Source of the DNA: Phycisphaera sp. | Lineage (GTDB): Bacteria; Planctomycetota; Phycisphaerae; Phycisphaerales; Phycisphaeraceae | DNA length: 55,757 nt | Assembly: GCA_016125215.1 (NCBI GenBank) | Contig: WGMF01000018.1 | Span: 1 to 55,757, forward strand | Direction: 5' to 3' | Shown here: piece by piece, positions 4,962 through 19,137 of the stretch | Layout of the letters: the number at the start of each line of letters is the position of its first letter | How positions within the stretch are numbered: position 1 is the stretch's first letter | Notes under the pieces: model-generated | What the model was told of the DNA's origin: nothing | Database searches by the model: none | Seen by the model: only the letters and a program-made list of their open reading frames with translations | Made by a program: the position numbers and the translations under genes

Positions 4962-7900
4962 ATGCCCGTACCTACGCAGACGTTCTACAACATCAAAAAG
5001 CTCAACGTCATTTTTGCCCTCAGCGCGGTAGCGCTGTTGCTCTGTTCGTTCTGGCTCATCATGGCGGACTACAACCGCCCCTGGCGCGGGTATCAGCAGC
5101 AGGCCAAGGCCTGGAACGTGGCCATGACCGAGGACGCACTCCGCCGAACACGGACGATCGCTTTTGAAAAAGAACTCGACGCGGTGAACCAGGACATCGT
5201 CCGGATCGAGCAGGGTCTGGACCAGAAGAAGATCGCTGAGCTTGAAGCGCAGGTCCAGGAAAAGCAGATGCAGAACAAGGAAAATGACCTGCCCCGGGCG
5301 GCGCTCAAGGGGCAGATCGGACCGCTCACGCAGCAGATCGAACGTGCCAGCCTCGAATTCGGCGATGACTCGGACGAAGTCAAAAAGCTCCGCAACGAAC
5401 TGGCCGACGTGACGACCCAGTACAACGAGAAAGACAGGCAATACACCGACAACGCCCTGGCCATCGCCGACCTCGGCTCGCGGCTCAACGCCCTCCGTGC
5501 CAAGCTCGCCGACGCCCAGAAGGAGAAGACCAGCCTCACCCGTAAACGCGACGCGCTCGTCGAACAACTCAATAAGCTCAACCCCGACAGCGCCCTGACC
5601 AGGCTGGCCGGCGTCCTCCGCGACGCGCCGATGCTCAACTGGTTCAACCCCGCTGAGGGCGTCAAACAGGTTGTTGTACCCGACGTGCGGATGGACCTGA
5701 ACTTCCTCACCATCGAGACGACCGACCGCTGCCAGACCTGCCACGTCAACATCGACGACCCCGCGTTCGACCGTGACAACATCATTGACTTCCTCGAACG
5801 CCAGATCGCTCGTGAAGAAGAGCAGGACGTCGACTCGATCGACCACCCCGTGGCAGGCATCGATTTCTGGACCAACGCGGTCAACGCCGCTGTCGCGTCG
5901 GGGAGCCTCAAAGAGTCAGCCGTCCAGACCATCCGCAACAACACGGCCGACGCGCTGACCCGTCTCCACGAAGCCGCCGGCGACAAGAAGCAGATCACCG
6001 CGGACGGTCTCGACGGCGAGCTTTACGCGATCCTCACCCGGGGCGACACCGGCGACAAGGTCACCCGCGCGCAGTGGTACGCCGTGCTCAACAACTACCT
6101 CGACGACCTGTCGAACCTGGTCAGGCAAGACCTCGGCGAGGAGTCCTACAAACAGTTCCGTGAGCTTTACCGTGTGGCCCTGACCGAGCGTTACAACACA
6201 CACCGCCTTGAGTCGGGCGACAAGCCGCTGACCATCAGCCCGATCCAACTGGCCCACCCGGACCTGGCACGTTACGTCCACCCCGACTCGACCCACCCGA
6301 TGAAGACGATGGGCTGCACCGTCTGCCACGAGGGCTCGGGGCAGGAAACCGAATTCGAGCACACCGCGCACGAGCCGCGCGAAATCTGGGTCGATGCGCA
6401 GACCGGCTCGCCCATCCCCGAAACACTCATCCGGGAAGTCGGCAAGCGTGGCGATATCGAACGCACGCTGCGCTCAAGTGGCACCGTTGCCAAGGCTCAG
6501 CCGGTCAACCCCGATGCCGCCTCGATCATTCTGGCCAAGCTCGAAACACCGGCTCAAGCGGATGAAGCCCACGAAGAGCACAACGGTCGCCAAGCGTCCT
6601 CTGCTTCGCACAACGCCATCGGTTACACGCAGGACGACATCAACCTCAACTCCCCTGGCGAGCCTGCGCCCTTTGCCCCCGAGCACCCCCCGCACGGCGA
6701 CAGTGCCCTCTACTTCAACCCCGCCACCGGCAAGTTGCAACTCGCTGTCCGACAGGAAAAACGCTGGGAAAAAGAGTTCGGCTGGTCCCCGGTCCACTTC
6801 ATGCACTGGGAAAAGCCCATGCACCGGCTGCCCTATGTCGAGTCGAGCTGCAACAAGTGTCACACCGAGGTCTTCGACATCCGTGACGAGGCCCCCACGC
6901 TCTTCGAGGGTCGGCGGCTATTTGCCCAACTCGGCTGCGTCAACTGCCACTCGGTCGACGACCTGACCAACGACGCCGACATCAAGAAGGTCGGCCCGAG
7001 CCTCGTGCATGTGAAAGACAAACTCTCGCCGCAGATGGTCGCCAACTGGGTCTGGGCGCCCAAGGCCTTCCGCCCGACGACGAAGATGCCCCATTACTTC
7101 ATGCTCGAGAACAACTCCTCGCCGGTCGACATCCTCCGCACGCGCACCGAAGTCACCGCGATGGCGTACTACCTCGAACACTCGACGCCCGCCGAGGGCA
7201 CCCCGGCGTTCGAGCCCGAAACCCCGCCCGAAACACTGGGCGACCCCGCGCGTGGGCGCGCCTTGTTTACACAGGTCGGCTGCCAGGCCTGCCACGTCAA
7301 CCTCGAAGAGTCCGGCCAGAAGTGGATCACCGACGACCTCGTCGAACGCACCGGGGTGACGACAGCCGAAGCGCTGGATGAATACAAGAAGATGTCCTAC
7401 AACCAGCGCGGCATGTACGCCAAGCAGTATCTTGAAGACAAACTCGAGATGACCGGCCCTGAACTCTCGGGCGTCGGCACCAAGCTCCTGGCGCACCGCA
7501 CACCCGAGCAGGCCCGCACGTGGCTCTACTCCTGGCTGCGCCACCCGCGCCACTACTCCTCCTACACCATCATGCCCAGCTTCCGCCTCGACGAGCGCGA
7601 CGCGTCGGACATGGCGGCTTACCTGCTCTCCATGCAACGCCCCACCGGCGAGGGCGATTACACCGTCGAGCCCTTCGGCTTTGACGACGAGGGCAACCCC
7701 GCGCTCGACGAAGCCTCCAACGTCATGCTCGACAAGCTCCTGGTCATCCTCAAGGCCCCGCAATCCTCCGAGGACATGGCCACTGAAGAAGTCAAGGGCA
7801 TGCAGACCGATGAGAAGCTCGACTTCCTCGGCAGGAAGATGATTGCCAACTACGGATGCAACGGCTGCCACCTCATCAATGGTTTCGAGAACGCCTCGAG

Positions 7901-10559
7901 CGCCTGCACCAACCTCGACGACTGGGGCCTGAAGGACCCGCACAAGCTCGACTTCGGTTACTTCGACCACGCCTTCGACACCGAGCGTGAAAAGCCCTAC
8001 ACCGTGTGGAAGGTCGCGCACGAGGGCCTCGACGCCGACGCCACCAAAGTCACCGCCGCCCCCGGAAAGGTCGCGCCCGAGATCGCCCAGCGCGAGGTCG
8101 AATGGGAGCACATGGACCTCGAACGCAGGCCGTGGCTCTACAACAAGCTGCACAACACCCGCGTCTACGACCGGGGCAAGACCAGCATCGAAGGCAAGAT
8201 GACCGACAGCCTCCAGACCATGGACCCCGGTCGGCCCTACGACAAGCTCAAGATGCCCAAGTTCTTCCTCACGGACGAACAGGTCCGCGCTCTGGTGACC
8301 TTTGTCACCAGCATCCGCAAGCCGCTCGTTTCGCCGACCATGCAGGCCGACACGGTCAGCCAAACCAAGATGAAGCTCATCCGCGGCAGGCAGATGGCCA
8401 CGATGTACAACTGCTACGGCTGCCACAACATCGAGGGCAACAACCCGCGCATCTGGCAGTATTCCGATGTCTTCAACGCCGACGGGTCGTTCAACTTCGA
8501 CGTGCTCAACAACGAGCCGCCGCGCCTTGTCGGCCAGGGCGCCAAGACCCAGCCCGACTGGCTGACCTACTTCTTCCAGAACGTCCACCCCATCCGACCC
8601 TGGCTCAAGGTCCGCATGCCCAGCTTCTTTGAGAATGACGAAGAGGCGGTCAAGCACACCACCGCGCTGGCGGATTATTTTGCCTCCTGGTCCCAGCTCC
8701 ACGCCAAGCCCATGAACAAGTGGGTCGGCAAGGTCGAGGATTACCGCAAGTCCGTCCCGCCCGACGCGGCGTGGTGGGCCGCGCCAAACATCGCCACCGA
8801 GATCGGGCACCTGCACGATTTTGCCGTCAGGTTCGCGCTGGCCAAGGCCTCCGAACTCGACCCGCGCCAGACGCCCAGCATCGAAGAGCAGCGCACCAAG
8901 TGGGAACGTGTGCTCAAGGACGTGAGCTTCCTGGCCAAGGATTACGACATCCAATACCCCTTCGCGGGCAACCCCCGGCCCGACCCGTCGCCCGAACGCT
9001 TTGCCCGTGGTGAAGCCCTCTTCAACGAGCTGCGCTGCTACCAGTGCCACGCCTTCGGCGACGAAGAGGTCCTCAAGAAACTCTGGCTACTCGACAACCC
9101 CCCCGGAAACCCCGCCCCCGGAAGTGAGCCGGGACAAACGGCCCCTTCGGATGATTACGGTTACGACGACGCCGGCGCTACCCCCGCACCGGCAACTCCC
9201 GCACAGGCCCCGGCAGCCTCGGCGGATGACTACGGCTACGGCGACGAACCCGCCAAGCCCGCCGCCGCGTCGAGCGATGACTCGGGCTACGGCGACGATT
9301 CGGGTTACGGAGACCAAACCCCCACCGAGACGAAGCCCACCGCCCCGATGGTCGAGCTCGACCCGCAGATCAACCACCCCGCGCTGCGCAATTACTCCGC
9401 GCCTAACTTGTTGTTAGCCTCCCAACGCCTGCAGTGGAACTGGGTCAACGACTGGCTGCAGGAGCCCAACACCATGCAGCCGGGCACGAAGATGCCGCAG
9501 TGGTTTGCCGACGGCAACTCGGCGTTCCAGAAATACCCCGAAGCCCTCAAGGACGAACGCCACGCGATGTTCGGGTACACCGGCCTCGAACAGCGCAAGG
9601 TGCTGATGGACTTCATCTACGCCTCGGGCCTGCGTCACTACACGCCGGGCGAGGAACGCCTCTGGGGCCAGGAAAAGACCGCGATCGAACTCAAGCCCCT
9701 CGAAAAGCCCAAGGGTCTGGATCAACCCGGTACCGCCGGCCAGACCGGGACGGGTGAAACCGCAACCGCCGCGTCGTCTGGCGAGTCCAAACCCGCCGAG
9801 GTCAAGAAGCCCGAGCCTGTCAAGAAACACGAAGAGCCGACCGTCTCCTCGATCGAACTGCCCGAGGGCACGAGCGCCGCATACGACGGCCCCGCGCTCA
9901 ACGGTCACAAGACGCGCGTCGTCGGCGTGGTGAAATGGGCCGGCCCGCCGCAGCGCCGCACGCCCATCAACATGGCTGCGGACAAGTATTGCCTGAGCCA
10001 GCACAAGACCGCCCCTCCGATGGAAGAGAAGTTTGTCAGTGGCCCGGACAACACGGTCCGCAACGTGCTGGTTCATGTTGTGGCCGGCCTGCCCGACGGC
10101 GGGTCGTACGACATCCCCGAGGCGTTGAAGAATCCTGAGATCGACCAGCAGGGCTGCGTCTACACACCGCACGTGCTGGGCATGGTGGCCGGCCAGGAGC
10201 TGGTCATCAAGAACGGCGACAGCACGCTTCACAACGTGAACATGAAGAGCCAGAACAACGGCGCGATGAACGAGGGCATGCCGGTGGCGGGCATGGTCAT
10301 CAACCGTGTGCTTTCCAAGCCCGAGATCGGCGTGACGTTCAAGTGCGATGTCCACCCGTGGATGGGCGGGTATGTCCATGTCATGCCCAACCCGTTCTTC
10401 GCGGTCAGCGACGTGGAGGGTCGCTTTGAGATTGTCGGCCTCCCGCCGGGCAAGTACACGCTCCAAGCCCTGCAGGAGCAGGCGTCGATCAAGCCTGTGA
10501 CGTTTGATGTCGAGGTCGTCGAGGGCCAGACGGTCCGTGGCGACGTGGCGTTGAAGTAG
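4962..10559 (+). CDS. Giant membrane-anchored octahaem cytochrome c fused to a cupredoxin
   Basis: The protein has 1865 residues. An N-terminal membrane anchor (about 14-36) is followed by a long charged coiled coil (about 60-210). Eight CxxCH haem c motifs start at residues 257, 452, 630, 659, 774, 966, 1151 and 1359. A linker of Asp-Tyr-Gly and Ala-Pro repeats (about 1390-1465) is followed by a cytochrome-like tail with a possible Met ligand (GTKMPQW). The C-terminus (about 1650-1865) is a cupredoxin with a plausible type 1 copper set His1757, Cys1795, His1798, Met1801 (motif CDVHPWM) and a carboxypeptidase-regulatory-like beta end. Segments such as GCVNCHSV and FRPTTKMPHYF resemble membrane-bound monohaem c subunits repeated in tandem. 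It is likely an extracytoplasmic electron conduit to the oxidase encoded just downstream; substrate and partner are inferred, not shown. Confidence 0.85.
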   Translation: MPVPTQTFYNIKKLNVIFALSAVALLLCSFWLIMADYNRPWRGYQQQAKAWNVAMTEDALRRTRTIAFEKELDAVNQDIVRIEQGLDQKKIAELEAQVQEKQMQNKENDLPRAALKGQIGPLTQQIERASLEFGDDSDEVKKLRNELADVTTQYNEKDRQYTDNALAIADLGSRLNALRAKLADAQKEKTSLTRKRDALVEQLNKLNPDSALTRLAGVLRDAPMLNWFNPAEGVKQVVVPDVRMDLNFLTIETTDRCQTCHVNIDDPAFDRDNIIDFLERQIAREEEQDVDSIDHPVAGIDFWTNAVNAAVASGSLKESAVQTIRNNTADALTRLHEAAGDKKQITADGLDGELYAILTRGDTGDKVTRAQWYAVLNNYLDDLSNLVRQDLGEESYKQFRELYRVALTERYNTHRLESGDKPLTISPIQLAHPDLARYVHPDSTHPMKTMGCTVCHEGSGQETEFEHTAHEPREIWVDAQTGSPIPETLIREVGKRGDIERTLRSSGTVAKAQPVNPDAASIILAKLETPAQADEAHEEHNGRQASSASHNAIGYTQDDINLNSPGEPAPFAPEHPPHGDSALYFNPATGKLQLAVRQEKRWEKEFGWSPVHFMHWEKPMHRLPYVESSCNKCHTEVFDIRDEAPTLFEGRRLFAQLGCVNCHSVDDLTNDADIKKVGPSLVHVKDKLSPQMVANWVWAPKAFRPTTKMPHYFMLENNSSPVDILRTRTEVTAMAYYLEHSTPAEGTPAFEPETPPETLGDPARGRALFTQVGCQACHVNLEESGQKWITDDLVERTGVTTAEALDEYKKMSYNQRGMYAKQYLEDKLEMTGPELSGVGTKLLAHRTPEQARTWLYSWLRHPRHYSSYTIMPSFRLDERDASDMAAYLLSMQRPTGEGDYTVEPFGFDDEGNPALDEASNVMLDKLLVILKAPQSSEDMATEEVKGMQTDEKLDFLGRKMIANYGCNGCHLINGFENASSACTNLDDWGLKDPHKLDFGYFDHAFDTEREKPYTVWKVAHEGLDADATKVTAAPGKVAPEIAQREVEWEHMDLERRPWLYNKLHNTRVYDRGKTSIEGKMTDSLQTMDPGRPYDKLKMPKFFLTDEQVRALVTFVTSIRKPLVSPTMQADTVSQTKMKLIRGRQMATMYNCYGCHNIEGNNPRIWQYSDVFNADGSFNFDVLNNEPPRLVGQGAKTQPDWLTYFFQNVHPIRPWLKVRMPSFFENDEEAVKHTTALADYFASWSQLHAKPMNKWVGKVEDYRKSVPPDAAWWAAPNIATEIGHLHDFAVRFALAKASELDPRQTPSIEEQRTKWERVLKDVSFLAKDYDIQYPFAGNPRPDPSPERFARGEALFNELRCYQCHAFGDEEVLKKLWLLDNPPGNPAPGSEPGQTAPSDDYGYDDAGATPAPATPAQAPAASADDYGYGDEPAKPAAASSDDSGYGDDSGYGDQTPTETKPTAPMVELDPQINHPALRNYSAPNLLLASQRLQWNWVNDWLQEPNTMQPGTKMPQWFADGNSAFQKYPEALKDERHAMFGYTGLEQRKVLMDFIYASGLRHYTPGEERLWGQEKTAIELKPLEKPKGLDQPGTAGQTGTGETATAASSGESKPAEVKKPEPVKKHEEPTVSSIELPEGTSAAYDGPALNGHKTRVVGVVKWAGPPQRRTPINMAADKYCLSQHKTAPPMEEKFVSGPDNTVRNVLVHVVAGLPDGGSYDIPEALKNPEIDQQGCVYTPHVLGMVAGQELVIKNGDSTLHNVNMKSQNNGAMNEGMPVAGMVINRVLSKPEIGVTFKCDVHPWMGGYVHVMPNPFFAVSDVEGRFEIVGLPPGKYTLQALQEQASIKPVTFDVEVVEGQTVRGDVALK

Positions 10560-10576
10560 AAGAAACGGGCAATCCC

Positions 10577-11077
10577 ATGGCGCAGTCCCTGAAAAACCTT
10601 CACCCGAAAAGGTGGGATATCCCCGTCCTGGTGGTTTTGTCCCTGGCGGCGTTGTCGGTCTCCCTTTACCTGCCGTTCATCCGCGTGGACAAGCTGATTT
10701 TCTTCAAAGACGAATACACCCTGCCACACAGCATCGCGGTGATGTGGTCGTCCAGGAATTACTTTCTGGCGATCGTGATCCTGCTCTTTTCGATCCTGTT
10801 CCCGTATGCCAAGCTCGTCACGCTGGGCGTGGTGTGGTTCTGGCGGATGGAAGAACAAGACCGCGACAAGGCGCTGCACTGGCTGGCGGTGCTGGGCAAG
10901 TGGTCGATGCTCGATGTGTTTGTCGTGGCGCTGGTGATTGTGCTCACGCAGTCCAAGGGCGGCGTGGAGGCCAGACCGCGGCCGGGCATCTACGTCTTTG
11001 CCGGTGCGATCATGGTGTCGATGGTTGTCACGATGATGATCCAGCGGATCGCGGGCTCGATCCACAAGTGTTCGTAA
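10577..11077 (+). CDS. PqiA-family integral membrane protein
   Basis: 166 residues with four predicted membrane helices (near 17-37, 59-83, 98-120 and 133-155). The pattern of SLYLPFIRVDKLIFFKDEYTL, then SSRNYFLAIVILLFSILFPYAKL and GKWSMLDVFVVALVIVL is that of the paraquat-inducible protein A family (compare the conserved G-WSM-DVF segment). Family members are membrane proteins linked to lipid transport or envelope stress; a role here is unknown. It begins 17 bp after the octahaem gene and is probably cotranscribed with it. A small hairpin at 11090-11105 follows. Confidence 0.8.
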   Translation: MAQSLKNLHPKRWDIPVLVVLSLAALSVSLYLPFIRVDKLIFFKDEYTLPHSIAVMWSSRNYFLAIVILLFSILFPYAKLVTLGVVWFWRMEEQDRDKALHWLAVLGKWSMLDVFVVALVIVLTQSKGGVEARPRPGIYVFAGAIMVSMVVTMMIQRIAGSIHKCS

Positions 11078-11122: not shown

Positions 11123-11144
11123 CGTGAAAACATCACGATAGAAT
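11123..11144 (+). promoter_or_regulatory. Possible promoter with overlapping inverted repeat, cupredoxin gene
   Basis: TAGAAT at 11139-11144 is a good -10 box, with no clear -35. Just upstream CGTGA-AAACA-TCACG (11123-11137) is an inverted repeat of operator type. A start near 11151 would give an 88-nt leader. Confidence 0.35.
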
Positions 11145-11238
11145 GTCGCATCCCGTTGGGCGGGATGGACCTTGCGACGCACGGTGTGTCACAAGGTGGA
11201 CGCGAACCCGTTCTGTGATGAAAACAGGAGTACATGCG

Positions 11239-12036
11239 ATGGCGTTTCATGGAAGTCGTTTGGCCACGGTCGGCGTGATGGGTCTGGCAATCGTGATGGG
11301 TTGGAACCTGCAAAGCCCGACCGCGCGAGCGGAAGAGGGCAAGACATTTGAAACAAACGTCGGCGGCGTCGAGGGCGCGGGCGGTTCGATCACAGGCAAG
11401 GTCACGTTCAACGGTGAACAGAAGCCCCGCCGACCGATCAACATGGCCGCGGACAAATACTGCCTCGGTGCCCACACCTCTCCGCCGCAGGAAGAAAAAT
11501 ACGTCTTCGGCAAGGACAACGCGCTGGTCAATGTCTTCGTCTGGGTCAGCAAGGGTGCCCCGACAGGCGGCACACCCATCCACGAAGCCGAGGTCGACCA
11601 GCAGGGCTGCGTCTATGTCCCGCACGTGGTCGGCGTGGTGACCGACCGTGAGTTCAAGATCCTCAACGGCGACTCGACGCTGCACAACGTCAACTTCAAG
11701 AGCAACGACAACGGCACGATGAACGAGGGCATGCCGGTCAAGGGCATGGAGATCACCAAGAAGTTTTCCAAGGAAGAGATCGGCGGGACCGCGACGCTCA
11801 AGTGCGACGTCCACCCGTGGATGCAGGCCTACCTGCAGGTCGTCTCGCATCCTTACTTTGCCGTGACGCAGGAAGACGGCACCTTCACCATCAAGGGCCT
11901 GCCGCCCGGTGATTACGAGGTTTCCGTGTGGCACGAGCTCAAGGTCTTCAAGCCCGACCAGAACGCGGTCAAAGTCACCGTTGAAGAGGGCAAGGCCGCC
12001 GAGGTCAACTTCGTCTTCAGCCCGCCCGGCAAGTGA
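11239..12036 (+). CDS. Exported cupredoxin (type 1 copper protein)
   Basis: 265 residues: a signal peptide (MAFHGSRLATVGVMGLAIVMG, cleavage probably after the TARA segment) and a cupredoxin with probable copper ligands His149, Cys189, His192 and Met195 (CDVHPWM). A short carboxypeptidase-regulatory-like C-terminal domain (FAVTQEDGTFTIKGLPPGDYEVSVWHE) follows. It closely parallels the C-terminal domain of the octahaem protein, sharing the RRPINMAADKYC, DQQGC and NDNGTMNEGMPV segments. The start is set by AGGAG 8 nt before ATG 11239. It is likely a soluble or anchored electron carrier between the octahaem protein and CoxB. Confidence 0.8.
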   Translation: MAFHGSRLATVGVMGLAIVMGWNLQSPTARAEEGKTFETNVGGVEGAGGSITGKVTFNGEQKPRRPINMAADKYCLGAHTSPPQEEKYVFGKDNALVNVFVWVSKGAPTGGTPIHEAEVDQQGCVYVPHVVGVVTDREFKILNGDSTLHNVNFKSNDNGTMNEGMPVKGMEITKKFSKEEIGGTATLKCDVHPWMQAYLQVVSHPYFAVTQEDGTFTIKGLPPGDYEVSVWHELKVFKPDQNAVKVTVEEGKAAEVNFVFSPPGK

Positions 12037-12116: not shown

Positions 12117-13133
12117 TTGAAAGGTCGACGGCTTATCTCTATCCCCCCGGTTGTCTGGTCGCTGGCGTGTGCAGTGGTGCTGGGCCTCTCCACCGTGGCC
12201 TGGGCACAGGGCACGGGCGACGCGGTCGAAACATTCCCCAAGACCACGTACTGGCTGCCCCCGGCCGTGTCCGAATCCGCCAGGCAGGTCGATACGCTCT
12301 TTGACGGCGTGCTCATCCTCACGACCGTCGTGTGCGTCGGCGTCTTCGTGCTGCTGCTGCTCTTTGCTTTCCGTTACCGTTTCCAGGCCGACCGAAGGGC
12401 AACATTCATCCACGGCAACAACAAGCTCGAAACCGTCTGGACGCTCATCCCCGCGTTCATCCTCGTCGGCATCACCTCGCTGAGCCAATCGACGTGGTCG
12501 AGCATCAAGACCCCCTTCACGCCCCCCTCGACCAAGCAGGTCCAGGACGGTGAGGTCGCGGAGCTGCGCGTCGTCGGCAGGCAGTTCAAGTGGTACTTCC
12601 AATACCCCGGCAAAGACGGAAAGCTCGGCCCGATCGACCCGAACATCGTCAAGGCCAGCGGGTCGCCCGAAGAGCAGATCGGCCTGGACCGCTCCAACCC
12701 CGACGCCAAGGACGACTTTGTCAGTGTCCAGATGGTCGTGCCTGTTCATCGCATGATCTACATCCACCTCCAGAGCGTCGACGTGCTGCACAGCTTCTAC
12801 CTGCCCGATTTCCGCATCAAGCAGGACGCCGTGCCGGGGTTGATCGGCAAGGTCTGGCTCAAGTCTGACAAGACCAGCGGCCAGGTCATGGGCGTCGCAC
12901 CCGATAGCCCGTTGCAGTCGATCGACAACGCCACGTTCCAGTTTGTCACGATCTCCGAAGCCAAGCCCTTCGACATCGTCTGTGCCGAGCTTTGTGGGCA
13001 GGGCCACTACACGATGCGCGGCGCGATGTACGTCGTCACGGACGAGGAGTACCGCAAGTTCCTCGACATCGAAGAAAAGAACGTCACGCCCCAGACGGGC
13101 ACCGACACCCAAACGGATGACGCGGGGTACTGA
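12117..13133 (+). CDS. coxB: Cytochrome c oxidase subunit II (CuA-bearing)
   Basis: Carries the binuclear CuA centre that takes electrons from cytochrome or copper donors. There is an N-terminal signal-like segment, two membrane helices (about 62-86 and 101-122), then the cupredoxin domain with VVGRQFKWYFQYPG, HSFYLPDFRIKQDAVPG and the CuA loop CAELCGQGHYTM (two Cys, His, Met). It carries no fused cytochrome c domain. An extra acidic stretch precedes the CuA loop (KTSGQVMGVAPDSPLQ). TTG is used as start, with AGGAG 7 nt upstream. Length is 338 residues. Confidence 0.93.
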   Translation: MKGRRLISIPPVVWSLACAVVLGLSTVAWAQGTGDAVETFPKTTYWLPPAVSESARQVDTLFDGVLILTTVVCVGVFVLLLLFAFRYRFQADRRATFIHGNNKLETVWTLIPAFILVGITSLSQSTWSSIKTPFTPPSTKQVQDGEVAELRVVGRQFKWYFQYPGKDGKLGPIDPNIVKASGSPEEQIGLDRSNPDAKDDFVSVQMVVPVHRMIYIHLQSVDVLHSFYLPDFRIKQDAVPGLIGKVWLKSDKTSGQVMGVAPDSPLQSIDNATFQFVTISEAKPFDIVCAELCGQGHYTMRGAMYVVTDEEYRKFLDIEEKNVTPQTGTDTQTDDAGY

Positions 13134-16350: not shown

Positions 16351-16468
16351 TGATGATTGATGATTGATAATTGATGATCTCAGAGAGTCACCTTCAATCA
16401 CACACCCCATGACGGTCAAGCAAGTGTAATGTCTCAAAAATCATCAATCATCAATCATCAATCATCGA
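16351..16468. repeat. Inverted ATGATTG-type repeat pair F between coxA and ctaA
   Basis: The left arm (16351-16378) repeats TGATGATTGATGATTGA. The right arm (16438-16468) is its inverse, ATCATCAATCATCAATC, with a 7-bp period. The right arm lies inside the annotated start of ctaA and encodes its first residues. A single-sided relative occurs at 35230-35261. Confidence 0.75.
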
Positions 16469-17526
16469 TCTGTGTCTACCGCCCCCGGTTGCACGTGTTG
16501 TCGATTGCGCTGGTGGTCTGCACGTTTGTCCTCGTAGCGCTGGGCGGGAACGTGACGAGCCGGGACGCGGGGCTTTCCGTGCCCGATGGGTTCACGGTGT
16601 TCGGGCACTTCCTCTGGTCGTTCCCCGTGAGCCAGTGGGTGGGCAACATCTTTCACGAACACATCCACCGGCTCATGGGCAGCGCGGTCGGGTTGCTCAC
16701 GCTGGCGGTCTGCCTCTGGGTGATGGTTGTCGAAAAGCGCAGGTGGATGCGGTGGCTGGCGATCGGGCTGTTTGCCGGCGTCGTGACCCAGGGCATCCTC
16801 GGCGGGCTGCGCGTTTCCGAAATCTCCACGACCCTTGCGATCCTCCACGGGATCACGGGGCAACTGGTCTTCACGCTCACCGTGGTCACCGCGGCGGCGC
16901 TGGGCCGGCACTGGTTCAACGCCACGACACAGGACCGACCACCGCAAGACAACTTTGCCTTCAACGGCAAGCTCTCGCTCGCTCTGCTCGCGGTTATCTT
17001 CGTGCAACTGGCCCTCGGCGCCACCGTGCGCCACACGCACTCGGCGCTGGCCATCCCCGACTTCCCTACCGCCTACGGGCAGGTGATCCCGCCTTTCAAC
17101 CCCGACGTGATCCGACACAAGCTCGACAAGGTCCCCTACGAATCCTTCATCGCCTACTACCAGCCCTGGCAGGTCGCCTTGCATTTTGCACACCGCGTCT
17201 GGGCGCTGGTCGTCGTGGGCACGGCCGTGTGGCTCGTCGGACGCATCGGACCCAGCGGCGCTTCCCGCAAGCTCACCTTCCCCCTGGCGATGCTCGGCTT
17301 GATGCTCATGGCCCAGGTCGCGCTCGGGGCGATGGTCATCTGGACGCAATGCACGCCCGACATCGCCACCGCTCACCAGTCGCTCGGGGCGATCATCCTC
17401 GCCACCGCGACGCTCATCGCCATCCGGTCGCACCTGCCCCCCCTGCCCACGCCGACGGCGGTAGACATTGACAAAGCCACAGCCAAGGTACAGAACTCCA
17501 CTTCGTGGAAGGCGGTGAAGGCATGA
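16429..17526 (+). CDS. ctaA: Haem A synthase
   Basis: Oxidises haem O to haem A for the oxidase. It is a COX15/CtaA-type eight-helix membrane protein: GNVTSRDAGLSVPD, FHEHIHRLMGSAVG (first haem His pair), LHGITGQLVF, VRHTHSALAIPDFPTAYG, and LHFAHRVWALVV / TAHQSLGAIILA in the second half. It has 365 residues if started at 16429. The first 14 or so residues (MSQKSSIINHQSS) are a translation of an intergenic repeat and there is no ribosome-binding site, so the true start may be later, near the VYRPRLHVL segment. It overlaps ctaB by 4 nt (ATGA). Confidence 0.9.
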   Translation: MSQKSSIINHQSSICVYRPRLHVLSIALVVCTFVLVALGGNVTSRDAGLSVPDGFTVFGHFLWSFPVSQWVGNIFHEHIHRLMGSAVGLLTLAVCLWVMVVEKRRWMRWLAIGLFAGVVTQGILGGLRVSEISTTLAILHGITGQLVFTLTVVTAAALGRHWFNATTQDRPPQDNFAFNGKLSLALLAVIFVQLALGATVRHTHSALAIPDFPTAYGQVIPPFNPDVIRHKLDKVPYESFIAYYQPWQVALHFAHRVWALVVVGTAVWLVGRIGPSGASRKLTFPLAMLGLMLMAQVALGAMVIWTQCTPDIATAHQSLGAIILATATLIAIRSHLPPLPTPTAVDIDKATAKVQNSTSWKAVKA

Positions 17527-18434
17527 CCCAGCTCACCACCACCCCGCAGTCAGCCGTCGGTGTCGAGCACGCCGCAAAACGCAACTCGCTCCTGCGTGAC
17601 TATATCGAGATGAGCAAGCTGCGCATCACGACGATGGTCGTCATCACCGCGTGGATCGGTTACGCAATAGTGGACGCCGGTTCGTCTTGGTTAAGGCTGG
17701 CGGCGATGTTCATCGGGACCGCGCTGTCGTGTATCGGCGCGGGGATCGTCAACCAGGCTTACGAAAAGCAGACCGACGCGCTCATGCCGCGCACGCGCAA
17801 CCGCCCGATCGCTTCGGGGCGGGTGAACAGGACGCAGGCGGCGGTGGTCGGCGTCGCGGTGGCGGCGCTGGGCGTGGCGGTGCTGTGGGTGGGTTGCAAC
17901 GCACTGACGGCCTGCGTAGCTATCACGAGTTTTGCGGTCTACACGTTCATCTACACGCCGATGAAGCGGATGAGCAGTGCCTCGACGATCGTGGGCGCGG
18001 TGCCGGGGGCGCTGCCGCCGGTGATCGGCGTCGCGGCGGCGGCGGGTTCGCTGACCATCGAGGCGTGGCTGATGTTTGCGATCATGTTCCTGTGGCAGTT
18101 GCCGCACTTCCTGGCGATTGCCTACGTCTACCGTGAAGATTATGCCCGCGCGGGCATGCCCATGCTGCCCGTCAAAGACCCCACCGGATCGACGACGTTT
18201 ACACAGGTGCTTTTAGGTTGCCTGGCGCTCTTGCCGTTGGGTCTGCTGCCGACGATGATGGGCGTGAGCGGGATGGTTTACTTCACGGGGGCGCTGGTGT
18301 GCGGGCTGGTGTTTCTGGCGTTCGGCGTGGTGCTGGTGCTCAGGCCGAGCGTGAAAGCGGCCAGGCGGTTGTTCTTTGCGTCCCTGGTGTACCTGCCGGT
18401 GGTGCTGATGTTGTTGCTGGTGGATCGGGTTTAG
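17523..18434 (+). CDS. ctaB: Haem O synthase (protohaem IX farnesyltransferase)
   Basis: Transfers a farnesyl group to haem B to make haem O, the substrate of CtaA. A UbiA-family polytopic membrane protein of 303 residues. The first Asp-rich prenyl diphosphate site is NQAYEKQTDALMPRTRNRPIASGRV, and the second conserved region is YVYREDYARAGMPMLPV. The ATG at 17523 overlaps the ctaA stop, with GGCGGTGAAGG just upstream; translational coupling is likely. Followed by coxC. Confidence 0.94.
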   Translation: MTQLTTTPQSAVGVEHAAKRNSLLRDYIEMSKLRITTMVVITAWIGYAIVDAGSSWLRLAAMFIGTALSCIGAGIVNQAYEKQTDALMPRTRNRPIASGRVNRTQAAVVGVAVAALGVAVLWVGCNALTACVAITSFAVYTFIYTPMKRMSSASTIVGAVPGALPPVIGVAAAAGSLTIEAWLMFAIMFLWQLPHFLAIAYVYREDYARAGMPMLPVKDPTGSTTFTQVLLGCLALLPLGLLPTMMGVSGMVYFTGALVCGLVFLAFGVVLVLRPSVKAARRLFFASLVYLPVVLMLLLVDRV

Positions 18435-18453
18435 TGGATTGAAGGTTCATCCA

Positions 18454-18478
18454 CCCGTCGCCCCCGGAAAGCGACGGG
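18454..18478. repeat. REP-like hairpin upstream of coxC
   Basis: CCCGTCGC, a 9-nt loop, GCGACGGG, followed by GCT. The arms differ from the cimA palindrome (3850-3871) only by a swapped central base pair, which keeps pairing. It sits in the ctaB-coxC spacer about 24 nt before the coxC start codon. Confidence 0.65.
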
Positions 18479-18501
18479 GCTCAATGTTTGAGGAAAAAAT
18501 T

Positions 18502-19137
18502 ATGTCACACGCGATTTCAACGCACGACGCCGACGGGCCTCTGATGGCACACGGGTCGGTGCTCCAGACGGGCATCACCAACGGCAAGATTGCCACGTGG
18601 CTCTTCCTCGGGTCGGAGGTGATGTTCTTCACGGGGCTGATCGGGGCTTACATCGTGCTGCGCTTCGGGCAGACGACGTGGGTCGACCCTTCCAGCCACG
18701 AGTTCCCCCTTGCGATCCCGCTCACCGCGGCCAACACCTTCCTGCTCATCTGCTCGTCGGTCACGCTCGTGTGGGGGCTGCAATCGATCCAGCAGGGCAA
18801 ACGTGCCAAGGGCAACCTCGGCCTGCTGCTCACGACCCTCTTCGGGGCGTGCTTCGTCGGCGTGCAGGCGTTTGAGTATTACTCGCTGTGGAACGGCATG
18901 CACCACCCGCCCTTCCGTCCCAACTCCGACCTCTTCGGAAGCTGTTTCTACGTGATGACCGGCTTCCACGGGTTCCACGTGCTCGTGGGTGTCATCGCGC
19001 TGGCGGTGCTCACGGTCATGGGCTACCGTGGCCACTTCAACGAAAAGAAATACGCCCCCGTCGAACTCACCGGCCTCTACTGGCACTTTGTCGACCTGGT
19101 GTGGATCATCCTCTTCGCAATCGTTTACCTGATGTGA
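18502..19137 (+). CDS. coxC: Cytochrome c oxidase subunit III
   Basis: Seven-helix-family core subunit that stabilises subunit I and its proton uptake. The sequence shows TWLFLGSEVMFFTGLIGAYIVLR, a conserved Glu in VGVQAFEYYSLW, SCFYVMTGFHGFHVLVG and LTGLYWHFVDLVWIILFAIVYL, all diagnostic. 211 residues, lacking the first two helices as is usual in short bacterial forms. The ATG at 18502 is chosen over an upstream in-frame ATG because a GAGGA box precedes it and the extension would read through a hairpin repeat. Confidence 0.95.
   Translation: MSHAISTHDADGPLMAHGSVLQTGITNGKIATWLFLGSEVMFFTGLIGAYIVLRFGQTTWVDPSSHEFPLAIPLTAANTFLLICSSVTLVWGLQSIQQGKRAKGNLGLLLTTLFGACFVGVQAFEYYSLWNGMHHPPFRPNSDLFGSCFYVMTGFHGFHVLVGVIALAVLTVMGYRGHFNEKKYAPVELTGLYWHFVDLVWIILFAIVYLM

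Follow-up and report, generated by a model that had tools for sequence, protein, structure and literature searches.

The window analyzed here, the whole 55,757-nucleotide stretch of a Phycisphaera sp. contig (WGMF01000018.1), encodes a protein that joins a membrane helix, a coiled-coil region, eight haem c sites and a predicted type 1 copper domain, followed on the same strand by the genes of a CuA oxidase (Table 1). The frame of the fused protein contains no internal stop codons. The original prediction had described one chain with a coiled coil, eight haem c sites and a copper domain, and the frame, the CxxCH positions, the copper ligands and structural models all uphold that description. 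We modeled the anatomy of the octahaem subunit, an N-terminal membrane helix followed by long helices, on a compact relative of 976 aa (L083), in which long helices at residues 43-209 back the coiled coil. In a separate predicted model of residues 1250-1865 of the fused protein, the copper domain has high confidence, and the linker before it and the insertion in the haem 8 domain have low confidence.

Table 1. Features of the fused protein and the downstream oxidase operon (positions in the window), with fusions of the same cupredoxin family to CoxB in other loci
Feature	Position	Strand	Basis
Octahaem c-type cytochrome (very probably of complex III type)–cupredoxin fusion, 1865 aa	4962..10559	+	Frame, domain search, relatives' gene order
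Single N-terminal membrane helix, ~aa 14-36	5001..5069	+	Hydropathy scan; helix 14-40 in compact relative's model (L083)
Coiled-coil region, ~aa 60-210	5139..5591	+	Weak coiled-coil matches under cut-off; long helices in relative's model
Haem 1 CxxCH, aa 257	5730..5744	+	Motif; kept in 55/55 relatives
Haem 2 CxxCH, aa 452	6315..6329	+	Motif, conservation
Haem 3 CxxCH, aa 630	6849..6863	+	Motif, conservation
Haem 4 CxxCH, aa 659; Met 709 a probable ligand	6936..6950	+	Motif, conservation
Haem 5 CxxCH, aa 774; Met 871 a probable ligand	7281..7295	+	Motif, conservation
Haem 6 CxxCH, aa 966; Met 1098 a probable ligand	7857..7871	+	Motif, conservation
Haem 7 CxxCH, aa 1151; Met 1219 a probable ligand	8412..8426	+	Motif, conservation
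Haem 8 CxxCH, aa 1359; Met 1511 a probable ligand	9036..9050	+	Motif, conservation
Insertion in haem 8 domain, predicted disordered, aa 1394-1475	9141..9386	+	pLDDT mostly <50
Linker between haem 8 domain and cupredoxin, predicted flexible, aa 1590-1615	9729..9806	+	pLDDT <50; Pro/Ala/Glu-rich stretches in fused set
Plastocyanin-like domain with predicted type 1 copper site, aa 1640-1812; ligands H1757, C1795, H1798, M1801	9879..10397	+	Sequence, conservation, model
C-terminal carboxypeptidase-regulatory-like domain, aa 1814-1865	10401..10556	+	Pfam PF13620 under cut-off; model match to carboxypeptidase N C-terminal part
PqiA-like membrane protein, between fused protein and separate cupredoxin	10577..11077	+	Domain search
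Separate cupredoxin, same family as fused domain; probable start codon 26 with signal peptide (by eye)	11143..12036	+	54% identity
CoxB with CuA motif CAELCGQGHYTM	12117..13133	+	Domain search, motif
CoxA, sole PF00115 match found in genome	13377..16343	+	Domain search
CtaA haem a synthase	16429..17526	+	Domain search
CtaB haem o synthase	17505..18434	+	Domain search
CoxC	18439..19137	+	Domain search
Omnitrophota cupredoxin-CoxB fusions	L023:13429-15024; L024, L026, L027, L029, L036, L041		

The eight haem sites stand far above chance: 2000 residue shuffles of the fused protein gave a mean of 0.0035 CxxCH motifs and a maximum of 1, and the motif is absent from every other frame of at least 80 aa in the window. 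We aligned 55 octahaem proteins chosen from 79 related loci (from the best 80 of 586 relatives). Throughout this alignment, both cysteines of every site are unchanged, as are five methionines in "MP" contexts after haems 4 to 8 (Table 1) and three histidines in the region of haems 1 to 3 (His 432, 445, and 470 of the fused protein). By analogy with class I cytochromes, these methionines and histidines are probably the distal haem ligands, with haems 1-3 probably His/His and haems 4-8 His/Met. One fused relative has CX4CH in place of CxxCH at haem 8. Family searches match the haem domains to ordinary class I cytochromes, and neither Pfam nor NCBIfam lists the HAO family for the fused protein at E 0.01. 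A sequence search of the haem alignment against the PDB matched 97 chains, with short matches among the 60 listed; they include class I cytochromes, the cytochrome c subunits of oxidases, alternative complex III and a bc complex, and also c7-like proteins and coiled coils. Searched alone, sequence P0001 gave one weak chain match, 1h31_B, named cytochrome c. A structure search with the compact L083 model returned no match at E ≤0.001 and a list of unrelated coiled coils, so that the haem part was barely probed and the search says nothing on its fold.

The copper ligands H1757, C1795, H1798, and M1801 are all kept in 10 of 10 haem-fused homologs. The same positions are occupied by the ligand residues in 97, 97, 97, and 96, respectively, of 97 other cupredoxin rows, a set that includes seven cupredoxins fused to CoxB and two duplicate records. 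The best structural matches of the predicted domain are plastocyanins (7pcy; Z 12.6, rmsd 1.6 over 84). From sequence and model, the predicted cupredoxin fold together with its His, Cys, His, and Met set marks the site as type 1, and the predicted ligand set is complete.

Downstream, the CuA oxidase genes lie where the original prediction had placed them; it had passed over the PqiA-like gene and the separate cupredoxin, which is 54% identical to the fused copper domain. The PqiA-like gene has no BLAST match in the other 79 loci (best 80 of 586 relatives). A COX4-like frame is also found in the oxidase cluster. CoxA was the one match in a PF00115 search of the genome, which is 98.25% complete, and it carries YSHPAVY, which we take to mark the A2 type. 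At 988 aa, CoxA has a COX1 match at 250-674 and thus long extra parts at both ends; it is of similar length in L005 and L019. The CuA motif is present in 52 of 52 CoxB frames across the loci from the best 80 of 586 relatives.

Those loci were collected by scanning named species genomes with six patterns, one of them a copper-domain peptide, and the 79 loci retained (best 80 of 586 relatives, with the window) span Planctomycetota, Omnitrophota, Neomarinimicrobiota, Acidobacteriota, Gemmatimonadota, and others. Several features of this set bear on the partner of the fused protein. First, subunit IV of a Rieske/b6/subunit IV complex is the next labeled gene upstream of the octahaem gene, less than 250 bases away, in 70 of the 79 loci, which supplies a name for the missing quinol-oxidizing partner of the original prediction. 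Upstream b6 and Rieske genes are present in 66 and 62 of the 79, respectively, some contigs being cut. The nine loci without an adjacent subunit IV are the fused L005, L006, L019, and L072, plus L008, L014, L027, L034, and L049; four of them (L006, L027, L034, and L049) begin at a contig edge. Second, the original prediction had looked to homologs with separately encoded domains and no link to oxidases as evidence against it: the domains are separate in most relatives, and at least one oxidase or haem-a-synthesis gene lies in 67 of the 79 loci, the other 12 having none within the stretch examined. CoxA itself is present in 53 of 79, in keeping with the proposed linkage to coxA. That linkage is not universal among the fused proteins, however, as two fused genomes of f5 (L125 and L126) have no oxidase gene in the stretch examined. 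Third, a separate cupredoxin of the same family occurs in 80 of 80 loci, window included, a count that is biased by the copper-domain peptide among the scan patterns and by keeping the best 80 of 586 relatives.

The original prediction had also stated that no bc1 genes occur in the window. This agrees with what was found in the window, but the same genome encodes Rieske, b6, and subunit IV on another contig (C1). The best PDB matches of this b6 are b6 chains, and it has a cysteine that aligns with that of 1q90 chain B; the b6 cysteine binds haem cn. No CxxCH frame of at least 80 aa is found within 19 kb around these complex III genes, and subunit IV is followed by a gene that, by eye, resembles a sugar-nucleotide enzyme. 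The same arrangement recurs: in 12 of 12 genomes examined whose octahaem gene lies apart from the complex III genes (ten fused and two not), a b6 of at least 78% identity is encoded elsewhere, with no CxxCH frame of more than 120 aa around it in the stretches fetched. These stretches extend 350 bases past subunit IV in L164 and less than 2 kb in L157, and the b6 of G127 is split over two short contigs (L165 and L166); the stretch fetched around b6 shows no Rieske match in three f5 genomes (L160-L162). Across 397 genomes of the class, 56 have both octahaem and b6, 3 octahaem only, 7 b6 only, and 331 neither (Fisher p 2e-56). This count was made among the matches listed, with thresholds that we set (b6 at ≥60% identity and a haem-region match), and two of the b6 matches are fragments. 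The adjacency of subunit IV in 70 of 79 loci (best 80 of 586 relatives), together with the lack of a CxxCH frame by the genome's own complex III genes, makes a complex III c subunit the most likely identity of the fused protein. From gene order and co-occurrence, we consider it very likely that the protein belongs to complex III.

Other respiratory genes of this genome are recorded here as separate observations. The Rieske protein on contig C1 (L084:8121-9194) has an N-terminal single-cluster ferredoxin domain, with PF13370 over the cut-off. The same domain was found at E 0.01 in 15 of 17 chosen Rieske proteins (16 of them planctomycete; the L031 row was left out), the short ones of L083 and L066 being without it. 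It precedes the presumed membrane helix and so perhaps lies on the cytoplasmic side, a hint of another electron route at the inner face of the membrane. On contig C14, an 1153-aa frame with 22 CxxCH motifs overlaps an FeS-NrfD fusion by four bases (L085:4820-8281 and 8278-10659, minus strand), and the pair looks like another quinone-linked multihaem system. Alternative complex III was considered as the partner and rejected: the genome shows a single PF03916 match, this FeS-NrfD fusion, which is of another kind and lies away from the fused protein. As to soluble carriers, the only PF00034 match listed for the genome lies inside the fused protein, and a PF13442 search listed one match. This match (L169:1321-2790, contig C23) is a membrane protein of 489 aa that has its cytochrome c domain at the C-terminus and by eye resembles a cytochrome bd-type subunit I. 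The PF13442 search of the genome did not list the fused protein, which matches PF13442 in the search of the window. Small cytochromes may therefore be overlooked and another carrier is possible, since multihaem proteins of other kinds are also present.

A search for the domain order in other genomes had been suggested with the original prediction. It yielded single frames with both haem sites and the copper domain in ten genomes (the window, L005, L006, L019, L072, and L124-L128), that of L006 being cut at its 5' end. Several other long-looking candidates proved to be two genes. In L020, the two genes lie in the same frame, a few bases apart. The cupredoxin family has matches in 216 of 392 genomes of the phylum, and among the matches listed, 0 of 12 long copper frames contained CxxCH (three of 537 to 707 aa were left out), the two genes being separate in L180. 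An octahaem tree of 87 rows, built by a quick method and without L006 and L049 because of contig-end cuts, calls for two changes, since eight fused rows group together whereas L128 sits with the unfused L008. The copper tree forces at least two changes, with the fused domains beside separate cupredoxins of the same lineages. Taken together, the two trees indicate that duplication plus fusion occurred at least twice. The linkers of the fused proteins are unlike in sequence, and the separate cupredoxin adjoins the fused gene in seven of the ten fused genomes; the other three, those of f5, encode one elsewhere.

The same cupredoxin family is also fused to the other side of the presumed electron path. 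In seven Omnitrophota loci (best 80 of 586 relatives; Table 1), it forms the N-terminus of CoxB, and these seven domains make up a clade of their own in the copper tree, with support 100/96. This fusion supports a path from octahaem to copper to CuA. Fusions of one copper family with both the complex III arm and the CuA subunit would be expected if that family carries electrons between them.

We propose, with a probability of about 0.8, that the fused protein is the c-type subunit of a Rieske/b6/subunit IV complex III, now encoded with the oxidase and joined to a duplicated cupredoxin. In this lineage, the octahaem gene would have left the complex III operon and would now head the sole haem-copper oxidase operon found. 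The N-terminal helix may anchor the chain while the coiled coil docks on complex III, and the Rieske cluster would then reduce the eight-haem array. The tethered copper domain could swing between the last haem or haems and the CuA of CoxB, and the separate cupredoxin might do the same job by diffusion or couple neighboring complexes. The original prediction had drawn electrons from a quinol-oxidizing partner through a haem wire and copper to CuA. Comparative genomics favors that route. The haem part is of a type already known. On this comparative evidence, we favor with some reserve the copper domain as a tethered carrier to CuA. We advance more tentatively, at somewhat less than even odds, a broader scheme of an obligate complex III-IV unit. 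In it, a plastocyanin-like domain permanently tethered to an eight-haem arm would shuttle to CuA; the same copper protein would have become attached at least twice on the complex III side, in Phycisphaerae, and on the CuA side in Omnitrophota.

The octahaem chain could also sit in complex III with its fused copper domain serving as a docking module or spare copy, while the separate cupredoxin feeds CuA. The separate gene adjoins the fused one in most fused genomes, and most surveyed relatives manage unfused, as this reading would have it; yet all four copper ligands are kept in every fused domain and the fusion arose at least twice, and we consider such a role less likely than that of a carrier. 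An independent multihaem conduit that is not a complex III subunit, for example one taking up electrons from outside the cell, is much less probable still. Multihaem cytochromes often act in this way, the octahaem gene is detached from the complex III genes here, and the genome holds the 22-CxxCH frame as well. Against this stand the adjacency to subunit IV (70 of 79 loci, best 80 of 586 relatives) and the co-occurrence with b6, the absence of a CxxCH frame beside the b6 genes in the stretches fetched, the lone membrane helix at the N-terminus of the chain, and the match of its haem domains to ordinary class I cytochromes. Copper delivery to CuA during assembly, as by Sco or PCuAC, would suit the proximity of CoxB and assembly genes and the fusion to CoxB in Omnitrophota. 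The ligand set and fold instead agree with those of cupredoxins that transfer electrons, plastocyanin and amicyanin among them, and fusion to a haem array would make little sense for a chaperone, so we regard this role, too, as highly improbable. The fused frame is real: many relatives are metagenome assemblies and the L020 genes lie a few bases apart in one frame, but an uninterrupted frame in each of ten genomes, at least two independent origins and unlike linkers leave an assembly or annotation artefact with a negligible chance.

The proposed complex III c subunit with a copper carrier names a partner and a likely path for a giant cytochrome without specific annotation, and points to a respiratory design that many uncultured phyla would have in common. 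One copper family fused to opposite sides of the gap between complex III and the oxidase makes the question of the carrier directly testable. A tethered copper shuttle would lend itself naturally to studying how the length and flexibility of a linker govern rates of electron transfer. Under the scheme of an obligate complex III-IV unit, the octahaem/cupredoxin/CuA chain would add a third widespread way of linking complex III to the oxidase, alongside soluble carriers and supercomplexes of the QcrC type.

Searches of the open-licence PubMed Central literature yielded no description of an octahaem complex III subunit with a cupredoxin attached, or of relocation of such a subunit to an oxidase operon, which agrees with the earlier statement that no characterized protein is known to have this domain order. 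Octahaem complex III subunits are already known; its place in the oxidase operon and its putative tethered copper carrier set the present protein apart from those described there. The account of the operon in the Nitrospina gracilis paper places octahaem cytochromes beside Rieske/b6/subunit IV genes and reports a like arrangement of the operon for Kuenenia and Methylomirabilis oxyfera (PMC3578206). As far as gene order and that description go, the likeness is close: a split b6-type cytochrome b, a Rieske protein and an octahaem c gene are adjacent. Here, by contrast, the gene of the putative c subunit lies in the oxidase operon and encodes a copper domain as well. For two Kuenenia complexes, the predicted models as presented in a structural account show multihaem cytochromes with membrane helices, and the long helices of Kustd1485 wrap half round the complex (PMC12954380). 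That anatomy, as described there, fits the layout of the fused protein, with its membrane helix and long helices. Two Kuenenia complexes also carry NAD(P) oxidoreductase parts.

Other systems resemble the proposed path in part. The Caldithrix genome paper proposed plastocyanin as a carrier linking alternative complex III and a multihaem protein, on the ground that it found no soluble monohaem cytochrome c (PMC5317091). Actinobacteria without free cytochrome c are described, in the treatment of their bcc-aa3 supercomplex, as passing electrons through the dihaem QcrC (PMC8361435). To the extent of that description, the fused protein is alike in being a membrane-bound c-type complex III subunit that would carry electrons to the oxidase. 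QcrC presumably differs in having two haems rather than eight and no copper domain. With plastocyanin and other type 1 cupredoxins, the copper domain shares the predicted fold (Z about 12) and the His-Cys-His-Met ligands. Photosynthetic plastocyanin takes electrons from a b6-type complex; the domain described here differs in being tethered to a putative complex III subunit, in having an extra C-terminal beta domain and in its acceptor, which would be a CuA oxidase. In caa3 oxidases, a cytochrome c fused to CoxB is a built-in donor to CuA. The fused donor proposed here would instead lie on the complex III side, and the Omnitrophota cupredoxin-CoxB fusion is the copper counterpart of the caa3 arrangement.
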